From Inquilinus sp. Marseille-Q2685 (lineage in GTDB: Bacteria; Pseudomonadota; Alphaproteobacteria; DSM-16000; Inquilinaceae), in assembly GCF_916619195.1 (NCBI RefSeq), contig NZ_CAKAKL010000003.1, positions 186,001 through 250,000 on the forward strand: a DNA stretch of 64,000 bases, in the 5' to 3' direction. How positions within the stretch are numbered: position 1 is the stretch's first letter; every line of letters begins with the position of its first letter. The position numbers and the translations under genes were made by a program. This document shows positions 41,791-61,273 of this stretch, piece by piece. Under the pieces are notes generated by a model. That model did not search any database. It was given only the letters and a program-made list of their open reading frames with translations, and had not been told where the DNA came from.

Positions 41791-41807
41791 TTCGCTACAG
41801 ACAGCCA

Positions 41808-41836
41808 TTGACGCATCGAGGCTCTAGGGATACGCT
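41808..41836 (+). promoter_or_regulatory. Candidate sigma-70 promoter of the arsM operon
   Basis: TTGACG (5 of 6 to the -35 consensus) and TACGCT (weak -10) are spaced by exactly 17 bases, immediately upstream of a strong palindrome at 41843-41863. Confidence 0.45.
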
Positions 41837-41842
41837 ACCTCT

Positions 41843-41863
41843 ATGCATTGCTCTTCAATGCAT
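41843..41863. promoter_or_regulatory. Palindromic operator candidate of the arsM operon
   Basis: ATGCATTG and CAATGCAT form perfect 8-base arms around CTCTT, placed at the predicted transcription start. The half-site TCAATGCAT recurs at 43419-43427, upstream of the flavoprotein gene. The likely binder is the PadR-type regulator encoded at 42971 or one of the ArsR proteins. Confidence 0.5.
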
Positions 41864-41907
41864 CGATCCCGAGAACTGCTCTGCACGAGTGGTGGAGGAG
41901 ATGCGCA

Positions 41908-42120
41908 ATGTCGAGCGTTACAGAGAGGCGTGCGCTGCGCCCTTCGTTTTCTGTCGTCCTGACGATCTGGAGCGAACTGAGACATACCTTCTCGTCCAGG
42001 CCGCCGCATTCGCCGTCGCCTGAATCCCTCAGCGTCCATCTCCAGCGTGACATCGGCGGCTTCGGCGCCAGCCCCGACGACGGCGACCGCCGGACCGTCC
42101 AACCGTGGAGGCTGCGATGA
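41908..42120 (+). CDS. Possible small leader ORF before arsM
   Basis: A 70-codon frame begins 7 bases after a strong GGAGGAG and ends in TGA overlapping the arsM ATG (ATGA). The product is Ser/Arg/Pro-rich and unlike any known protein, so it may be a translated leader that couples ribosomes to arsM rather than a functional protein. The 387-base gap before arsM otherwise holds the promoter and palindrome. Confidence 0.3.
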   Translation: MSSVTERRALRPSFSVVLTIWSELRHTFSSRPPHSPSPESLSVHLQRDIGGFGASPDDGDRRTVQPWRLR

Positions 42121-42923
42121 ACACGTCCGAGACCAGGAAACTGGTGCGGGATCGGTATGCGGGGATCGCCACCGCCGGTGGATCCTGCTGCGGTCCTGCC
42201 TCCGGCTCCGCCTGCTGCGGTTCCGATCGAGGCGTCGATGCCAAAGCAGCCCGGATGGGCTACTCCGAGGCCGAGCTTCGGGCCGTCCCGGACGGAGCCA
42301 ATCTGGGCCTCGGCTGTGGCAATCCCCAGGCCATCGCCGGTTTGAAGCCGGGCGAGGTCGTGGTCGATCTCGGGAGCGGCGCCGGGTTCGATTGCCTTCT
42401 GGCGGCACGGCAAGTCGGCCCGGAGGGGCGGGTAATCGGGATCGACATGACCCACGAGATGCTGGCCAAGGCGCGTGAGAATGCGGCACGGGCTGGTGCG
42501 AGGAATGTCGAATTCCGGCTCGGAGAGATCGAGCACCTCCCGGTTCCCGACAACACTGCCGACGTGATCGTGTCGAACTGCGTGATCAACCTCGTGCCCG
42601 ACCAGGCCCAGGTCTTCCGCGAGGCATTCCGGGTTCTGAAGCCGGGTGGGCGCCTGGCGATCACCGACATGGTGAACATCCGTCCGCTGCCGGCCGATCT
42701 GGCCGCCGACGAGGCGCTGATCTGCGGCTGTGTCGCAGGGGCTGCAGCACCGAGCGCGGTCGAGGGCTGGCTTCAGGCGGCCGGCTTCGCCGAGATCGCG
42801 ATTCGGGTCAAGTCGGATAGTCGCGAGCTCGTGTCAGACTGGGCGCCGGAGCGAGCCGTCGAGACGTATGTCGCGTCCGCGACGCTCGAAGCGGTCAAGC
42901 CCATCACTCAGGCCGGCGCGTAG
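42117..42923 (+). CDS. arsM: Arsenite S-adenosylmethionine methyltransferase
   Basis: The start at 42117 follows GGAGG and gives 268 residues. The Rossmann core has VVDLGSGAGFDCLLAA and IGIDMTHEMLAKAR. The three functional cysteines of bacterial ArsM are present: Cys67 (LGLGCGNPQ), Cys155 (VSNCVINL) and Cys203/205 (LICGCVAG). An added N-terminal motif has two vicinal pairs, Cys24-Cys25 and Cys33-Cys34 (SCCGPASGSACCG). It methylates As(III) to mono-, di- and trimethyl products. First recognised gene of an operon with the PadR regulator, flavoprotein and MFS exporter. Confidence 0.95.
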   Translation: MNTSETRKLVRDRYAGIATAGGSCCGPASGSACCGSDRGVDAKAARMGYSEAELRAVPDGANLGLGCGNPQAIAGLKPGEVVVDLGSGAGFDCLLAARQVGPEGRVIGIDMTHEMLAKARENAARAGARNVEFRLGEIEHLPVPDNTADVIVSNCVINLVPDQAQVFREAFRVLKPGGRLAITDMVNIRPLPADLAADEALICGCVAGAAAPSAVEGWLQAAGFAEIAIRVKSDSRELVSDWAPERAVETYVASATLEAVKPITQAGA

Positions 42924-42970: not shown

Positions 42971-43390
42971 ATGTCCAAGCCCGCCAAGCCCCTTGAGGTC
43001 GTTCCCCGTCAGGCCCCTGAATACACCAGCCGGTCGTACTGGAGCGGCACGATCAAGATGTCGCTGTCGAAGTTTTTCATCCTGCGCGTTCTGCATGACC
43101 GGCCGATGCACGGCTACGACATCGCCCGCGCCGTCGAGCTGACGACCAACGGCTGCTGCTCGCCCACGGAGGGGACGATCTATCCGGTCCTCCGGGACTT
43201 CGAGGAGGGTGGCTACGTGACGTCGGAGACCGAACTGGTGTGTGGACGACAGCGGAAGACCTACACCCTGACGGACAAGGGGCGAGATGCCTTCCGCGTC
43301 GGCGTCGAAGCCTGGATGGAGGTGACGGCCGCGCTGGTCGAGACGGGCACGCTCGTCGAGCGGGCCGGGAAGGGCGGCTGCTGCACCTGA
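42971..43390 (+). CDS. PadR-family regulator with vicinal cysteine pairs, candidate arsenite sensor
   Basis: A 139-residue winged-helix PadR protein: FFILRVLHDRPMHGYDIARAV, then GTIYPVLRDFEEGGYVTSE and KTYTLTDKGRDAFR. Cys62-Cys63 lie right before the recognition region (TNGCCSPTEG), Cys91 in the wing, and Cys137-Cys138 at the extreme C-terminus (GGCCT). Ordinary PadR proteins lack these. In an arsenic operon this suggests As(III)-thiol sensing and derepression, which is inference. Lies 47 bases after arsM. Confidence 0.82.
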   Translation: MSKPAKPLEVVPRQAPEYTSRSYWSGTIKMSLSKFFILRVLHDRPMHGYDIARAVELTTNGCCSPTEGTIYPVLRDFEEGGYVTSETELVCGRQRKTYTLTDKGRDAFRVGVEAWMEVTAALVETGTLVERAGKGGCCT

Positions 43391-43411
43391 ACCCTTTTTT
43401 GTGTTCGGCCC

Positions 43412-43427
43412 TTGATCATCAATGCAT
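43412..43427. promoter_or_regulatory. Second CAATGCAT site upstream of the flavoprotein gene
   Basis: TTGATCATCAA (43412-43422) is an inverted repeat, and the adjoining TCAATGCAT (43419-43427) equals the half-site of the arsM palindrome. It lies 25 bases before the next start, so a regulator may act at both places. Confidence 0.4.
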
Positions 43428-43451
43428 AGACCTCATGAGCGGAGCGCCGTA

Positions 43452-44876
43452 ATGACCTCGATCTCCTCCTCGATTCCCCGGCCAGACGCTGCAGCGATGA
43501 GCGCCATGCATGCGACCGGATCGACGGCCGATCTGCCGATCGCGATCATCGGCGGCGGCCCCGTCGGGCTCGCCGCGGCCGCCCAGTGCCTCGCGCGCGG
43601 CCTCGAACCGGTGATCCTCGAAGCCGGGGATCGGGTCGGCGCCGCTGTCCGGGCCTGGGGCCACGTGCCGATGTTCTCCGAATGGGAGTTCAACCTCGAC
43701 CGGGCGGCGGTCGGATTGCTGGAGAAGGCGGGCTGGGACCGGCCCGACGATCGGGTCTATCCGACCGGACGCGAGCTCGCCGAGCGGTACCTCGATCCTC
43801 TGTCTGCCACGCCGGAGATCTCAGCCCGCCTGCGCCTGAACTCGCGCGTCATCGGCATGGCGCGCAGCCAGCTCGGCAAGCTCCGAACCGAAGGGCGCGA
43901 GGTGCAACCTTTCGAGGTTCGTTACGGGGACGCCTCCGGACGGGAACACCGCCTCTTCGCCCGTGCGGTGATCGATGCCTCCGGGACCTGGTCCAACCCG
44001 AGTCCCGGCGGCGCCAACGGGCTTCCCGCCATCGGCGAACGGTCGGCGGCGGATCGCGTGCGCTACGGCATGCCCGACGTGCTCGGTGCCGAGCGAGACC
44101 GCTATGTCGGTAAGCGGGTCCTGGTCGTCGGCAGCGGCCACTCGGCGATCGGGACCCTGATCGACCTCGCGGCCCTGGCTGAGTTGAGCCCGGGCACACG
44201 GATTCTTTGGGCGATCCGCGGCACTGACATGGTCCGGATCTACGGCGGCGGCTCGGCCGATCAACTGCCGAGGCGCGGTGCGCTGGGCCGGCGCGTGCGC
44301 GCTCTGGTCGACCAGGGCGCGATCGAGATCCTCACTCCCTTCGCGCTGGACGAGATCACCCGAGGCGCCGGCGGGACCCTGGTCGTCGCCGGAATCAGCG
44401 ACGGCGGGACGCGAAGCGTCGAAGTCGACGAAATGATCGTGGCGACCGGATTGCGTCCTGATCTGAGTTTCCTCGGGGAGCTTCGCCTCGACCTCGATCC
44501 GGCGTTGGAATGCTCGCGGGCGTTGGCACCGTTGATCGACCCGAATGTGCACTCCTGCGGGACGGTCCGGCCGCACGGCGCGGCGGAGCTCGCGCAACCC
44601 GAGCCCGGGCTCTATCTGATCGGCATGAAGAGCTACGGCCGGGCTCCGACTTTCCTCCTCGCCACGGGCTACGAGCAGGCCCGGTCGGTCGTGGCCAAGC
44701 TCGCCGGCGACGAGGAGGGCGCGCGCCGCATCGAGTTGGTGCTGCCGGAGACAGGCGTTTGCAGCGGCTCGGGCGCTCGACCCGGCACGGCCCCGGCGGA
44801 AACCGAGGCTGAATGCTGCGGGCCGAAGATTACCACGGAGCCCCGGGCGACGTCCTGCTGCGGCGCCGTGGCGTGA
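43452..44876 (+). CDS. NAD(P)/FAD-dependent flavoprotein of the ars operon
   Basis: The start at 43452 gives 474 residues. FAD-binding GGGPVGLAAAAQCLARG lies near residue 36 and a second dinucleotide fold (VLVVGSGHSAIGTLIDLA) near residue 218, as in flavin monooxygenases and thioredoxin-reductase-like proteins. The C-terminus is unusual: CCGPKITTEPRATSCCG (two vicinal Cys pairs at 455-456 and 469-470), echoing the N-terminus of ArsM. It lies in an operon between the PadR regulator and an MFS exporter. An arsenical oxidoreductase role is inferred; the reaction is unknown. It is distinct from the ArsO-like protein at 60182. Confidence 0.78.
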   Translation: MTSISSSIPRPDAAAMSAMHATGSTADLPIAIIGGGPVGLAAAAQCLARGLEPVILEAGDRVGAAVRAWGHVPMFSEWEFNLDRAAVGLLEKAGWDRPDDRVYPTGRELAERYLDPLSATPEISARLRLNSRVIGMARSQLGKLRTEGREVQPFEVRYGDASGREHRLFARAVIDASGTWSNPSPGGANGLPAIGERSAADRVRYGMPDVLGAERDRYVGKRVLVVGSGHSAIGTLIDLAALAELSPGTRILWAIRGTDMVRIYGGGSADQLPRRGALGRRVRALVDQGAIEILTPFALDEITRGAGGTLVVAGISDGGTRSVEVDEMIVATGLRPDLSFLGELRLDLDPALECSRALAPLIDPNVHSCGTVRPHGAAELAQPEPGLYLIGMKSYGRAPTFLLATGYEQARSVVAKLAGDEEGARRIELVLPETGVCSGSGARPGTAPAETEAECCGPKITTEPRATSCCGAVA

Positions 44877-46111
44877 GCCTGGTCCCGAGCTCGGCCGCGC
44901 CTGCCCGGGGGCGGCCGAAGCAATCGGTCATCGCCGTGCTCGGCGTGACCGAAATCCTCGCCTACGGATCGACCTACTATCTTCCGGCGGTTCTGGCGAA
45001 GCCGATATCCGTCGACACGGGATGGCCGCTCGCCTGGATCGTCGGGGGCTTGTCGCTGGGCTGGCTGGTATCCGGCGTGGTCTCGCCGATCGTCGGCCGC
45101 ACCATCGATCGTCGCGGCGGTCGGCCAGTTATCGCCGCGAGCGCCGTCCTCCTGGCCTGCGGCTTGGCAATGCTCGGTGCGGCGCCCAACCTGCCGATGT
45201 TCTTCCTGGCCTGGGCCGTCATCGGGCTGGGCATGGGGGGCGGGCTCTACGATGCGGTATTTGCGTCTCTCGGGCGCCTCTACGGCGCCGGCGCCCGCGG
45301 CGCGATCACGGCCCTGACGCTCTGGGGCGGCTTCGCCAGCACGATCTGCTGGCCGTTCAGCGCCTTCCTGGTTGACCAGGTTGGATGGCGCGGCACGTGC
45401 CTGGTCTATGCCGCGATCCATCTCTGTGCAGCGCTTCCGCTGCAAATGGCCGTGCTTCCGCGCGAGGAGCGCTCGAAACCGGCACCGTCCATACCGCAGC
45501 CAGGCGCCGCCGACGACGCGCTGACCGCAGGGTCTCCGTCCTTTCTCCTCTTCGTCCTGCTCGCAGTGACGTTCACGCTGGCGTCCGCCGTGCCGGCGGT
45601 GATGTCGGTTCACCTGCTGACGATCTTGCAATCCCAAGGAATCGCTCTCGGCGCGGCCGTCGCGCTCGGGGCGCTGGTGGGGCCGTCGCAGGTGGCCTCT
45701 CGCGCCATCGAGATGGTCATCGGCCGGTTCCATCACCCCATCTGGACGATGATCGTGGCGACGGTGCTGGTCGTGCTCGGCCTGGGCCTTCTCGTTGCCG
45801 GCGCACCGGTCGTGGCCGTGGCCCTGATCCTTTACGGTGGTGGCATCGGCCTCGAGTCGATCGCAAAGGGCACTCTTCCGCTCGCGCTGTTCGGCAGCGA
45901 GGGCTACGCCACGCTGATGGGCAAGCTCGCCGTGCCGGGGCTCCTGGTCCAGGCAGTCGCGCCCTTCATCGGGGCGCTGCTGATTGACCGGCTCGGCCCG
46001 TCGGCGATGCTCGCCATCGTCTGGGTTCTGGCAGCGGCGAACGTCGCCTCCGCCGTGCTTCTGATGGTGCTGCACCGTAGTCGCGGCCGGGCGCCCGCCA
46101 CGCCGGCATGA
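44873..46111 (+). CDS. MFS transporter of the ars operon
   Basis: GTG at 44873 overlaps the flavoprotein stop (GTGA) and gives 412 residues; an in-frame ATG at 44813 would overlap that gene by 64 bases and is less likely. About 12 membrane segments are seen, with SPIVGRTIDRRGGRPVI (the MFS loop 2-3 motif D-R-x-G-R) and a central hydrophilic loop near residue 200. Arsenic operons often contain an MFS exporter for methyl- or aromatic arsenicals or arsenite (ArsP/ArsK-like roles), but this sequence cannot be tied to one of them by eye. Confidence 0.8.
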   Translation: MSLVPSSAAPARGRPKQSVIAVLGVTEILAYGSTYYLPAVLAKPISVDTGWPLAWIVGGLSLGWLVSGVVSPIVGRTIDRRGGRPVIAASAVLLACGLAMLGAAPNLPMFFLAWAVIGLGMGGGLYDAVFASLGRLYGAGARGAITALTLWGGFASTICWPFSAFLVDQVGWRGTCLVYAAIHLCAALPLQMAVLPREERSKPAPSIPQPGAADDALTAGSPSFLLFVLLAVTFTLASAVPAVMSVHLLTILQSQGIALGAAVALGALVGPSQVASRAIEMVIGRFHHPIWTMIVATVLVVLGLGLLVAGAPVVAVALILYGGGIGLESIAKGTLPLALFGSEGYATLMGKLAVPGLLVQAVAPFIGALLIDRLGPSAMLAIVWVLAAANVASAVLLMVLHRSRGRAPATPA

Positions 46112-51889: not shown

Positions 51890-53227
51890 CTATCTCGGGC
51901 GATCGGCCAACCCGTACTTTCGCATCTTCTCCCAGAGCGTCGTGCGGGAGATCCCGAGCACCTGTGCCGTCCGACCGATCTGCCATCCCGTCTTCTCGAG
52001 CGCCTCTTCGATGTGACGCCGTTCCAGGACCTTCCGGCGGTCGGCCAATGGGATGATCGACGTCGGGCCAGCGGCAGACCAAGTGCTTTGGCTGGTCAGG
52101 TCGGGAAAGAGGTCGATCTCGGTGATCATTGTCGTCTGGGCCAGTGCGATGGCGCGTTCGACGCGGTTGCGCAGCTCCCGGACATTGCCCGGCCACACAT
52201 GCTCGCGGGCGGCGGCGCGGGCGCCGTCGGTCAGGGCTATGGCGCCGCGGCCGAACATCGTCGCGAACTGATCGACGTAGAGCCGGAGGAGATCCTCGAT
52301 GTCGTCCGGGCGATCCCTGAGGGAAGGGATCGACACAGGGATGACGTTGATCCGGAAGAACAGATCCTCCCGGAACCTTCCTTCCCGAACCCGCTGCTCG
52401 AGGTCGGCGTTGGTGGCGCAGATGACCCGGGCGGAAAAGGGCTGAACCCGCTCGCCACCGACCCGGGTGAACACCCGGTCCTGGACCAGACGGAGCAGCT
52501 TCGGCTGCACGGCGAGCGGAAGCTCGCCGATCTCGTCCAGGAACAGGATGCCGTCTCCCGACCGCTCGGCATAGCCGCGGTGCTGGGCGTGGGCGTTCGT
52601 GAAGGCGCCTCTCTCGTGTCCGAAGAGCTCGCTTTCGATGAGCTCGGACGGAACCGCTGCGCAGTTGACGGCCACGAAAGGCTGGCCGGCGCGTTTCGAG
52701 GCCTGATGGACGAAGCGGGCCGCGACTTCCTTGCCGACACCACTCTCGCCGGTCAGCAGCAGCGTGGAGTCGATGTCGAGGATGCGCCGGAGGAGCGCCT
52801 CGACCTGCTGCATCGGCCGGGAGCGGCCGAGCGCTCCGGTCGGCCGATCGCTGCGCTCCAGGATCGAGGAGACCTTCCCGAGCAGCTCGGCAACGTCGAA
52901 CGGCTTGGCCAGATAGTCCTCGGCTCCGGCCTTCACCAGGCGGACGGCCTGCTCGATTTCGGCGAAGGCGGTGACGAATATGACCGGAGCCCGGCCCGGT
53001 GCCTCGTTGAGGCGCTGCAGGATCTGCTCGCCGTTCATGTCCGGGAGCTGGATATCGCACAGCACCAGGTCGAAGGCGTCGGCGGCCAAGCGATCCAGGG
53101 CGTCCTGCGCCGTCGACCACCAGGAGGCCGCGTAGCCTTCCAGCTCAAAACGGTCGGCAAGCGCCTGACCCACGATCGGGTCGTCCTCTATGATGCCGAT
53201 CCGGCGTCGATCATGCTGCAGCATCAA
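51890..53227 (-). CDS. aioR: Sigma-54-dependent response regulator AioR
   Basis: A 445-residue NtrC-type regulator. Receiver domain 8-120 with acidic pair EDD, Asp58 (LVLCDIQLPD) and Lys108 (LAKPF). AAA+ domain about 135-370 with Walker A GESGVGKE (160-167), Walker B GILFLDEIGEL and an arginine finger region. The sigma-54 contact loop reads GAFTNA (207-212) instead of the usual GAFTGA. A Fis-type helix-turn-helix ends the protein (IGRTAQVLGISRTTLWEKMRKYGL). With AioS it should activate the sigma-54 promoter of aioBA. It overlaps the aioS end by 17 bases. Confidence 0.92.
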   Translation of the reverse strand: MMLQHDRRRIGIIEDDPIVGQALADRFELEGYAASWWSTAQDALDRLAADAFDLVLCDIQLPDMNGEQILQRLNEAPGRAPVIFVTAFAEIEQAVRLVKAGAEDYLAKPFDVAELLGKVSSILERSDRPTGALGRSRPMQQVEALLRRILDIDSTLLLTGESGVGKEVAARFVHQASKRAGQPFVAVNCAAVPSELIESELFGHERGAFTNAHAQHRGYAERSGDGILFLDEIGELPLAVQPKLLRLVQDRVFTRVGGERVQPFSARVICATNADLEQRVREGRFREDLFFRINVIPVSIPSLRDRPDDIEDLLRLYVDQFATMFGRGAIALTDGARAAAREHVWPGNVRELRNRVERAIALAQTTMITEIDLFPDLTSQSTWSAAGPTSIIPLADRRKVLERRHIEEALEKTGWQIGRTAQVLGISRTTLWEKMRKYGLADRPR

Positions 53228-54632
53228 GAGTCCTTCGGGCGATTGGGATCACGAGACGGATGCTGGTTCCGCCGCGAGCGTGGGTTCTCACGGTCGCGGT
53301 ACCGCCGAGGCGACGGAGAAGGCGCGCGGCGCTCCAGAGGCCGAGGCCATGGGAGCCAACCGGCGGCTGTTCGTCCTGAGACACCAGCAGATTCGCCATC
53401 GGTGCCGGCAAGCCCGGGCCTTCATCGCGGACGGCGATATAGAGATGGTCGCGCTTCGCCAACGCTATGAAGGCGACGGAGCCGCGGACGGGAGTTGCGA
53501 CACAAGCGTTGAGCAGCAGGTTCAGCGCCACCTGTCGGACTGCGGCACCGTCGATATCGATGGGCGATTGGAGGGCATTGGTCCAGACAAGCCGGATCTG
53601 GCGCCGGCTCCGTTCATGGGCGATGAGGAACTGCAGATCGTCGAGATCTGCCGGATCCAGGGTTCTGGCCGCCGTGCTCTGCTTGTAGGAGAGCAAAACC
53701 GAGCGGACGACATTGCGAATGCCGAGGAGGCCGCGCTCGACCAGGGCGATGCTCCGCTCTCGCACGGCGGGATTGTTGCCGTGCACCTTGAGCGTATCGA
53801 GCGCCGTCATCATGCCGCCGAGCGGATTGTTCACCTCATGCGCCATGCCGGATGCCAGACGCCCGATGACAGCGACCTTTTCCTCCTCGGCGAGCTGTGC
53901 GGCCAAGGCGTCCCGCTCCGCAGCCGCGCTGGTCATCCGATTGTAGCGGTCCGCCAGCGCCCGGAATTCCTGCGGCCAGCCGGCAGTGAGCTTCTGCGGG
54001 ATCGGCCGTGGTACACCCCCGTCGGTCGCGCCGACATGAGCGGTCAGGCTGGTCACGGGGCGCAGCAGCAGCCGGACCGCGAGATATCCGAGGCCGGCGA
54101 AGGCCAATGCGAGAAGCCCGTTGACGATAATCAGGGTCCGCAGCGTTTGGCGCCGCGCCGTGATGAGATCGGCAATGTCGATTTCCGCGCTGATCTGGCC
54201 GATGAGGGTGCCGTCCTGCTGGATCGTCCGGGCGAGGCGGGCTGTCTCCGCCGACGCATCGATGCTCAACTCCGGCGCCACGAATGGGAGGTGAGTGCCG
54301 ACGGGGAAGCGGCGCGGCTGCGAGCTCGCGAGAACCGTGTTGTCCGGGAGAATGGCCGTGAGCCAGGTCGGCCGGACTCGACCGCCCTCGTGGGCCGCCC
54401 GGTCCAGCACGTCGAAGGTCTCCCACACGTCGCGCCGCATGATGGTCGGTGCGGCCGCGAGGGCAACGCCGTCGAGCATGCTGGCCGACAGGTTCCTCAG
54501 GTAGCTCTCCTGGTCAGCCTCGAGCCGCTTGAGCACCACGGCCGACGCCGCGACACCGGCGGACAGCATCAGCGCGGCGACGAGGATCGGAATCTTGACG
54601 GTCAGCGGGGTGCGGCGCCGCCGGGCGGTCAT
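53211..54632 (-). CDS. aioS: Arsenite-responsive sensor histidine kinase AioS
   Basis: A 473-residue kinase: a first membrane helix (about 15-35), a periplasmic domain of about 125 residues, a second helix (about 165-190) and a HAMP-like segment. The H-box is SGMAHEVNNPLGG (His265), followed by N-, G1- and G2-type ATP-binding boxes (NLLLNACVATP, DEGPGLP, GSHGLGLWSAARLL). It is positioned between aioX and aioR and probably receives the signal from periplasmic AioX. The start is 4-base-overlapped with aioX. Confidence 0.9.
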   Translation of the reverse strand: MTARRRRTPLTVKIPILVAALMLSAGVAASAVVLKRLEADQESYLRNLSASMLDGVALAAAPTIMRRDVWETFDVLDRAAHEGGRVRPTWLTAILPDNTVLASSQPRRFPVGTHLPFVAPELSIDASAETARLARTIQQDGTLIGQISAEIDIADLITARRQTLRTLIIVNGLLALAFAGLGYLAVRLLLRPVTSLTAHVGATDGGVPRPIPQKLTAGWPQEFRALADRYNRMTSAAAERDALAAQLAEEEKVAVIGRLASGMAHEVNNPLGGMMTALDTLKVHGNNPAVRERSIALVERGLLGIRNVVRSVLLSYKQSTAARTLDPADLDDLQFLIAHERSRRQIRLVWTNALQSPIDIDGAAVRQVALNLLLNACVATPVRGSVAFIALAKRDHLYIAVRDEGPGLPAPMANLLVSQDEQPPVGSHGLGLWSAARLLRRLGGTATVRTHARGGTSIRLVIPIARRTLDAAA

Positions 54633-55528
54633 GCGTCGCTCCTCACTGCCTCATACAGGGAGGCGATTCCGGCAAAGAGACTGTCGGGCTGCTCGTCGAA
54701 GCGGTCCAGATGGAGGCTGGCCAGGAGCGCGCGACCGCTCGCGTCGCCATCCATGTCCAAGAGCAGCCTTTTCAGCCGAACGATGGCCGGTTCCTCGGCC
54801 CGCGCCGCCAGGCAGGCGATCGGCGGGAAGCCGAGTTTCTGGGACCGATGGAGGACGCGGGTGGCACCGGTCAGGGACGGTTCGATCTGCTGCAGGATCT
54901 CCCAGACATAGCCGTCGACGCTCCCGGATTGCGCCAGGTCCGCCGCGACCGCCCGCACGACGTTGCGATGGCCATAGGTGAAGAAGAACGAGCTGAAGAA
55001 GGATCGCGGAGATTCGTGGATCTGGTGCAGCAGCCAGCGGGTGACCAGAAACCCCGAATTGCTGTCCGGATCGCTGAAGGCATGAATCTGGTCCCGGAGA
55101 CCTTCCAGCGATTGGGCCGGATTGTCCGCGGCCACGATCATGTAGGATTGATAAAGGGGTTCCCCGCGATAGATCGGGACCGCGATCAGCTGCAGCCGGT
55201 CGCGGTGCTGGACATATGGATAGCCGCAGATCCAGGCGGCTTCGATCTGGCCGGAGAGCAGCAGCGCCGTGATCTCCTGATAGGTCCGGCGCTGCTCGAT
55301 GATCACGGGGCGGCCGAGCCGCTCGCTGAAATAGGTCGAAAACCGGTCGAGGAACGCGACATCGGAATCGATGACGACGGGCGTGATGCCGATCCGAACC
55401 GGGTCGAGGGATTGCGCGCGGGCTCGGCCGGCGCCGAGACCTGCGAGCGACATCACGCCGCCGATCACCGCAAGCCGGCGGTCGAGACGGATCACCGCGG
55501 GACCGGTGCTCCTCCCATCCTCAGGCAT
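54629..55528 (-). CDS. aioX: Periplasmic arsenite-binding protein AioX
   Basis: A 299-residue PhnD/SsuA-type substrate-binding protein. The signal peptide ends near residue 38 (ARA-Q). The core has PVRIGITPVVIDSDVAFLDRF, SGQIEAAWICGYPYVQ (Cys101) and VAADNPAQSLEGLRDQ. In A. tumefaciens AioX, a cysteine in the homologous protein is needed for As(III) sensing; Cys101 in A-W-I-C-G-Y-P-Y is the likely equivalent. It is first of the aioXSR operon and would present bound arsenite to AioS. Confidence 0.9.
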   Translation of the reverse strand: MPEDGRSTGPAVIRLDRRLAVIGGVMSLAGLGAGRARAQSLDPVRIGITPVVIDSDVAFLDRFSTYFSERLGRPVIIEQRRTYQEITALLLSGQIEAAWICGYPYVQHRDRLQLIAVPIYRGEPLYQSYMIVAADNPAQSLEGLRDQIHAFSDPDSNSGFLVTRWLLHQIHESPRSFFSSFFFTYGHRNVVRAVAADLAQSGSVDGYVWEILQQIEPSLTGATRVLHRSQKLGFPPIACLAARAEEPAIVRLKRLLLDMDGDASGRALLASLHLDRFDEQPDSLFAGIASLYEAVRSDA

Positions 55529-60181: not shown

Positions 60182-61273
60182 TCAGATCGTTGCCATGCTG
60201 TGTTCGGCCTCAAGGGCCGCCGCGATCTCGCCGGCGGTGGCGCGCGCCGTCCGGGCGACGCCGATCAGCGTCGCCGAGGCGTAGCCGGTCCATTCCCCGT
60301 AGCCGACCAGCCATAGCCGCGGCTCGCGGAGCGATCGCGTGCCCTCCACCCGGACGCGTCCGTCGTCCTCGATCACTCCGAGCGGCACAAGATGGTCCAG
60401 GGCGGGGCGGTAGCCCGTACACCAGATCACCGTGTCGACCCTGCTGTGCGATCCGTCCCGCCAGATCACGCCGTCTTCGACGAAGCGCTCGAAGGGCCGG
60501 ACGGCGGTCAACACCCCGCGGTTCCGCGCCTCCTGCACCGGCGGCACCATGACGATATCGCCCAGTCCTCCCTTCGGCACGATGACAGTCCGGCCCGCCT
60601 GCTGCGCCTTCCATCGCTCGGTCGCACGCTCGAACAGGACGCGGCCGTCGACGTCATCGGGCAGGAACATCGGCGGCTCGATCGTGACCCAGGTCGCTTG
60701 GGCGGCCTTCGACACCTCCGCGAGGATCTGGGCGCCGGAGTTTCCTCCGCCGGCGATCAGGACCCGCTGGCCGGCGAAGTCATCGGGGCGTCGATAGCCG
60801 CTCGAATGAAGCTGGTGGCCGATGAACCTGTCCCGGCCGGGATAAGCGGGGACATAGGGCTTGCCCCAGGTTCCGGTTGCGCTGACGACCGCCCGGGCCG
60901 ACCATGTGCCCTGGTCTGCATGAACCAGCAATCCACCCGCGCCCCGCTCGACGGAGTGCACTCGCACGGGACGCTCGATGTTGAAGCCATAACGGCGCTC
61001 GTACTCGGCCAAGTATGCGACGACGTGGTCGCGCGTCGGATAGTCGTCCCCGGCACGCGGCAGCATCCATCCGGGCAGAGAGCTCCACTGGGCGGGCGAG
61101 AACAGGCGGAGCGAATCCCAGGCGTGGCGCCAGGCGCCGCCTGGGGCCTCCTCGGCGTCGAGGAGGACGAAATCGATCTCCGCCCGGCGCAGAAAGTAGG
61201 CGACGGCCAGCGCCGACTGGCCACCGCCGATGACGACGACGCCCACAGTCCGCGGGCTTGCCCGTGAGTTCAC
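60182..61273 (-). CDS. arsO: ArsO-family flavin-containing monooxygenase
   Basis: A 363-residue flavoprotein: [18 protein letters not shown] (FAD), [21 protein letters not shown] (very typical of ArsO), the FATGTW-like [33 protein letters not shown] (NADPH) and [12 protein letters not shown]. ArsO genes accompany ars operons; their exact reaction is not settled. Eight bases separate it from arsC and one from arsR. Confidence 0.9.

Follow-up and report, generated by a model that had tools for sequence, protein, structure and literature searches.

To our knowledge, nearly all characterized arsenic operons are interpreted as being under ArsR control. The As(III) repressors of the ArsR/SmtB family (R773 ArsR, AfArsR, CgArsR and SpArsR) are dimeric winged-helix autorepressors of ars operons, with an operator over the promoter and cysteine thiols as arsenical ligands, traits that the system proposed below would share. 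In R773 ArsR the cysteine site lies inside the DNA-binding domain, and CgArsR has a vicinal pair (PMC11868830).

Among PadR-type regulators, ChrI of B. cereus SJ1 is induced by chromate and belongs to an operon with an oxyanion exporter (PMC2936356). The M. tuberculosis PadR protein Rv3488 binds metal ions. As far as we know, Rv3488 is not part of an arsenic operon. The small-molecule PadRs LmrR and B. subtilis PadR have drugs or phenolic acids as ligands and are not known to bind metals through a recognition-helix cysteine pair.

Here we describe a PadR protein that, judging from its sequence and surroundings, is very probably the arsenic-responsive switch of an arsenic-detoxification operon. 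Its gene lies within a 64-kb stretch of DNA (the window, meaning the whole stretch analyzed) together with arsM and genes for a flavoprotein and an exporter (Table 1). Taken as a whole, the explanation that we favor, with a probability of roughly 0.78, is that a dimeric PadR repressor sits on operators O1 and O2 and would be released from them by trivalent arsenicals. The first-pass annotation of this DNA had already read the protein as a probable arsenite-responsive repressor, and that reading is supported by our analyses, with no check contradicting it.

Table 1. Features of the arsM-padR operon and its predicted control region, with positions in the window.
Feature	Positions	Strand	Basis
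Sigma-70-type promoter predicted for the arsM operon: -35 TTGACG (41808-41813), 17-nt spacer, -10 TACGCT (41831-41836)	41808..41836	+	Same layout as padR promoters of other genera
Operator O1 (predicted), 21-bp dyad ACGCATCGA-GGC-TCTAGGGAT within the promoter	41811..41831	.	30-mer matrix 28.0 bits; dyad matrix 19.6
Operator O2 (predicted), near-perfect dyad ATGCATTGC-TCT-TCAATGCAT at the predicted transcription start	41843..41863	.	Dyad matrix 30.1 bits; both strands score
arsM, arsenite S-adenosylmethionine methyltransferase; ATG 42120 is the likely start	42105..42923	+	PRK11873
padR, predicted winged-helix repressor; paired Cys at 62-63 and 137-138	42971..43390	+	PF03551, AlphaFold2, PadR structures
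Codons of C62-C63, immediately preceding the recognition helix; putative core ligands for arsenicals	43154..43159	+	CC in 84/84 homologs
Codons of C137-C138, C-terminus; proposed additional thiol ligands	43379..43384	+	C-terminal CC 49/84, CxC 24/84
Operator O3 (predicted), padR/flavoprotein gap, GGCCCTTGA-TCA-TCAATGCAT, degenerate left half	43407..43427	.	30-mer matrix 12.2 bits; dyad matrix 13.1
FAD/NAD(P)-binding flavoprotein distantly related to ArsO and YpdA; C-terminal tail rich in Cys	43452..44876	+	Profile matches; homolog adjoining padR in 72/84
MFS exporter related to ArsK	44813..46111	+	NF033733 best family; similar MFS in 63/84 loci

The padR open reading frame encodes 139 residues, and its product matches PF03551 at 73.6 bits (Pfam search; cut-off 27), with ArsR/SmtB (PF01022, HTH_5) absent from its Pfam and NCBIfam matches. 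An AlphaFold2 model (mean pLDDT 91.2) contains a helix at residues 48-58, a loop at 59-66 that carries C62-C63 and a predicted recognition helix at 67-79. A wing of two strands comes next, and then a long C-terminal helix (102-134), directly behind which lie C137-C138. The model has the PadR fold with its C-terminal dimerization helix, and the solved structures that align to it at Z 13-14 include Rv3488 and the operator-bound B. subtilis PadR. The first-pass annotation had proposed a PadR-type winged helix with vicinal cysteines near the recognition region and at the C-terminus; the Pfam match bears out the family, and both pairs are present among the five cysteines of the protein (62, 63, 91, 137 and 138).

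We compared this protein with its relatives in a set of 84 loci (80 from a collection scan with ortholog alignment, plus the window, a paralog and two further genera), which was collected with peptide patterns that did not contain the cysteines of interest. Because the 84 loci are mutually related, counts over them do not represent independent events. All 84 homologs have CC at the position of C62-C63, which more divergent clade members also keep, and 0 of 26 rows of other PadRs have it. At the C-terminus, CC (49/84) and CxC (24/84) together account for 73 homologs, the window protein among these, and the pair is missing or reduced in the other 11. The cysteine pairs pointed out in the first pass are a conserved signature of this PadR clade, with the internal pair invariant. 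A fixed three-cysteine site was dropped as a clade-defining trait since the C-terminal pair is not universal, and its absence or reduction in 11 of 84 homologs and in a Cupriavidus member means that an As(III) site of three fixed thiols cannot be assumed. Members without the C-terminal pair could offer only two thiols per subunit, a number that suffices for MAs(III) in SpArsR (PMC11868830).

This CC clade is mainly alphaproteobacterial. All 56 clade members compared with PF03551 match it. Of 289 evenly sampled alphaproteobacterial genomes, about nine contain a clear clade member, with a wide score gap of 167 bits versus 61 for other PadRs, and 398 genomes sampled evenly across the phylum yielded no members outside the Alphaproteobacteria. 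Nearly all of the 84 loci are likewise alphaproteobacterial (mostly Inquilinus, Azospirillum, Xanthobacter, Chthonobacter and the Roseomonas group), and a Cupriavidus plasmid is a betaproteobacterial carrier of one clade member. On this plasmid, pRK1-4 of Cupriavidus basilensis (L150:6968-8329), the PadR has the internal CC and lacks the C-terminal cysteines; the locus contains two dyads, and the next gene encodes an ArsP_1-family permease, making it a related operon with a different pump. The PadR tree resolves the position of the window copy weakly. A record titled Mycobacterium sp. KBS0706 (L050, NZ_VCCH02000093.1) carries a locus that falls within Inquilinus limosus in this tree and is probably misnamed; its genome counts as the same genus as the window.

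The clade is also associated with a common DNA site. Upstream regions of the padR loci share a strikingly conserved consensus, TTGAc-GCATCGA-N3-TCaAgGcATAg, the core of which is a 21-bp dyad, ATGCATCGA-N3-TCGATGCAT, that lies between the -35 and -10 boxes of the padR promoters. With a dyad matrix built solely from sites upstream of padR and a threshold of at least 16 bits, we identified the dyad upstream of padR in 82 of 84 loci; the window has it at the promoter of arsM, from which padR would be read as well. As an independent check on this upstream-trained matrix, the gap that follows padR was searched, and 71 of the 84 loci have a dyad there. The remaining 1.45 Mb contained eight matches, the best and third best of which lie upstream of arsM in the window. 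Ten loci have a second dyad that overlies the padR start codon, 32-33 bp further downstream.

Two further features of these promoters deserve mention. In most loci (for example L082, L072 and L095) the padR start codon lies a few bases past the -10 box, which suggests a leaderless mRNA; padR of the relatives is thus probably translated without a leader, and almost all of the promoter is taken up by the operator. Similar dyads (ATACCTTGGTATTCAAGGTAT and ATGCCTAGTAATTCTAGGTAT) occur upstream of two related PadRs without CC (L143 and L145), and we accordingly dropped the idea that the operator is exclusive to the CC clade. Their presence there indicates that the operator type probably predates the cysteine sensor.

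Within the window, we searched for sites using a 30-mer matrix derived from padR promoters of other genera, with the window and its genus excluded from training. The top four matches all fall within the arsM-padR operon, at 41807-41836 (28.0 bits), 41838-41868 (minus strand 26.9, plus strand 20.6) and 43403-43432 (12.2), and the best unrelated place scores 0.8 bits. In 40 random windows used as a control, the maximum averages 3.2 bits and the largest value is 17.6; the O3 score of 12.2 is below that largest value, and O3 occupies the conserved place after padR. The palindrome at 41843-41863, ATGCATTGCTCTTCAATGCAT, matches the dyad pattern perfectly, where shuffled sequences average 0.15 matches at two or fewer mismatches. 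It had been put forward by the first-pass annotation as a regulatory site, together with a sequence shared between the operon start and the region just after padR. Both proposals held up: the palindrome corresponds to the predicted operator of this PadR family, with one of the best window scores from an independently trained matrix, and the shared sequence, TCAATGCAT, has exactly two copies in the 64 kb, one at 41855 and one at 43419. O1 is a second dyad, additional to the palindrome, that overlaps the promoter and has a weaker right half. Its center is 32 bp from that of O2, and the same tandem layout at 32-33 bp recurs in 10 other loci.

A genome-wide scan of the host with a sequence-only covariance model found clear sites only in the arsM-padR operon and at the promoter of the paralog locus, with O1 as the best match in the genome. 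Weak matches at C1:93974, C2:689321 and C1:482335 were set aside because they resemble coding sequence. We likewise rejected a PadR regulon extending further into the surrounding island (aio, acr3 and arsJ), as no site of the window outside the operon exceeded 0.8 bits.

The arrangement of arsM and padR is particular to this genome. The arsM product passes the PRK11873 model (NF008823) at 347.6 bits (cut-off 263) and its gene adjoins padR directly upstream, which substantiates the first-pass placement of padR within an arsM operon. The 47-bp gap between the two genes contains no dyad, so padR must be read from the arsM promoter. Among the 84 loci, arsM adjoins padR of the CC clade only in the window genome, and the simplest reading is that arsM was inserted behind an old padR promoter. 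Some 260 bases separate the predicted transcription start from arsM (41843-42100 of the window). A short open frame from ATG 41843 (MHCSSMHRS...) resembles the padR start MPRSSMH of the tandem-operator loci and is possibly a relic of the old padR start.

Downstream of padR, the two remaining genes of the operon belong to a unit that recurs across the clade. A flavoprotein gene is present in 72 of 84 loci and a similar MFS gene in 63, and the usual targets of the clade PadR are predicted to be the flavoprotein and an ArsK-like exporter. The flavoprotein of the window scores 39.9 bits against ArsO (NF040505), below the cut-off of 425. Its tail contains CC motifs, as is usual for the flavoprotein across the clade, and among 75 homologs 34 have seven cysteines within their final 75 residues. 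The protein may be an enzyme that binds or oxidizes arsenicals. The exporter scores 239.1 bits against ArsK (NF033733; cut-off 400) and is ArsK-like only; ArsK is nonetheless the best NCBIfam match of the MFS protein in every locus scanned, at 157-256 bits (all below 400).

Arsenic genes frequently surround this unit. We found arsC, acr3, arsM or aioA within 8 kb of padR in 35 of 84 loci, a count to be read against 0-2 acr3 copies per genome, and no other arsenic gene within 8 kb in several of the 84. The arsenic setting ascribed to padR in the first pass extends to many loci of its clade. In the host genome, a PadR paralog (79% identical) lies in a cluster with the order arsR-arsC-acr3-GNAT-padR-flavoprotein-MFS. 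The window operon itself is part of an arsenic-phosphate island (32000-63000), with pst/pho genes and PhoX on the upstream side and, downstream of the operon, cytochrome c, aioA, an aioXSR-like trio (51890-55528), arsJ, arsR, arsH and arsC. The downstream side also includes a true ArsO (60182-61273; 566.7 bits against NF040505), a second arsR and acr3, and the PadR dyad is absent from all of these downstream genes. Since arsR genes are found elsewhere in the island, PadR is not the sole arsenic regulator of the cell.

Combining the computed fold, conserved cysteines, operators with their specificity and arsenic gene context, we propose that the arsM operon promoter is bound by PadR homodimers on its two 21-bp dyads, O1 and O2. 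In the dimer geometry that we presume, dimers on O1 and the adjacent O2 would cover the DNA from -35 to about +21 and block RNA polymerase, keeping the methyltransferase, PadR itself, the flavoprotein and the efflux pump off, with O3 adding control over the flavoprotein and exporter genes. PadR would presumably act on the arsM-padR-flavoprotein-exporter operon, itself included, as a repressor rather than an activator. The cysteines and the gene context point to a trivalent arsenical as the inducer, which would be As(III) and probably also MAs(III) (the product of ArsM) or Sb(III). The arsenical would bind the vicinal thiols of C62-C63 at the start of the recognition helix, assisted by the C-terminal cysteines, and shift the helix out of register, leading to release of the DNA.

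The second cysteine pair, present in 73 of 84 homologs including the window protein, could complete a three-thiol As(III) site, and many loci carry genes for As(V) or As(III) (arsC, acr3 and aioA) rather than organoarsenical genes. Both points weigh against a narrower form of the favored explanation, which we regard as somewhat unlikely, in which PadR senses methylarsenite or other trivalent organoarsenicals selectively and has little response to inorganic As(III), like the two-cysteine SpArsR. Such selectivity would fit the observations that only the two vicinal cysteines are invariant, with the C-terminal pair missing in several members, and that a related operon contains an ArsP_1-family permease. 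It would also fit an operon that yields MAs(III) through ArsM, and two thiols suffice for MAs(III) in SpArsR (PMC11868830).

The same repressor and operators could instead serve a non-arsenical inducer, either another soft metal (Cd, Cu, Hg or Zn) or thiol oxidation, with arsenic genes being merely frequent neighbors. We consider this quite improbable given that arsC, acr3, arsM or aioA occur at 35 of 84 loci, that the exporter is closest to ArsK and that the gene captured in the window is arsM, even though metal-binding PadRs are known (cadmium and manganese complexes of Rv3488 have been solved) and ChrI is induced by chromate (PMC2936356). The Cupriavidus ArsP_1 permease resembles, below cut-off, the SO_0444 Cu/Zn and SaoE efflux proteins, and some loci have no other arsenic gene nearby, both of which would also suit such an inducer. 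Finally, it is very improbable that arsM is constitutive or under another regulator and that the dyads upstream of it are relics of an ancestral padR promoter: arsM next to a CC-clade padR only in the window genome among 84 loci and the weaker right half of O1 would suit this, but O1 and O2 are among the best sites genome-wide, O2 fits the dyad pattern without a mismatch and padR, separated from arsM by a 47-bp gap free of dyads, must be read from the arsM promoter.

A broader conclusion is reasonably likely, namely that a second, ArsR-independent family evolved thiol sensing of trivalent arsenicals. This family would be a mainly alphaproteobacterial PadR clade with its own 21-bp operator, a probably leaderless promoter and a cysteine site at the recognition helix, controlling an undescribed module (a Cys-tailed flavoprotein and an ArsK-like pump) that captured arsM here. 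It would represent a separate origin of arsenic sensing, and its conserved operator would provide a ready-made operator and reporter for arsenic biosensors. The module genes currently carry generic names (PadR regulator, NAD(P)-binding protein and MFS transporter), and our analysis flags the flavoprotein and pump as a likely arsenic-detoxification module.

We found no PadR-type arsenic sensor in the open-licence literature, and a subscription paper could exist; CC-clade PadR switches with a common DNA-binding site are apparently an undescribed group. Among described PadRs, LmrR and B. subtilis PadR have the same fold as the window protein (Z 13.4 for B. subtilis PadR on operator DNA). Rv3488 ranks with the solved structures that match the model best (Z 13-14), whereas its sequence is about 24% identical and its NCBIfam family scores 35.8 bits against a cut-off of 140. 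ChrI is similar in being a PadR-type regulator with an exporter in its operon, as proposed for the window PadR, and differs in having chromate as inducer, a proposed basic-residue ligand site and chrA as target. Compared with the ArsR/SmtB repressors, the window protein has a PadR domain, no ArsR family match and a different operator, and its cysteine pairs are found in the loop before the recognition helix and at the end of the PadR dimerization helix.
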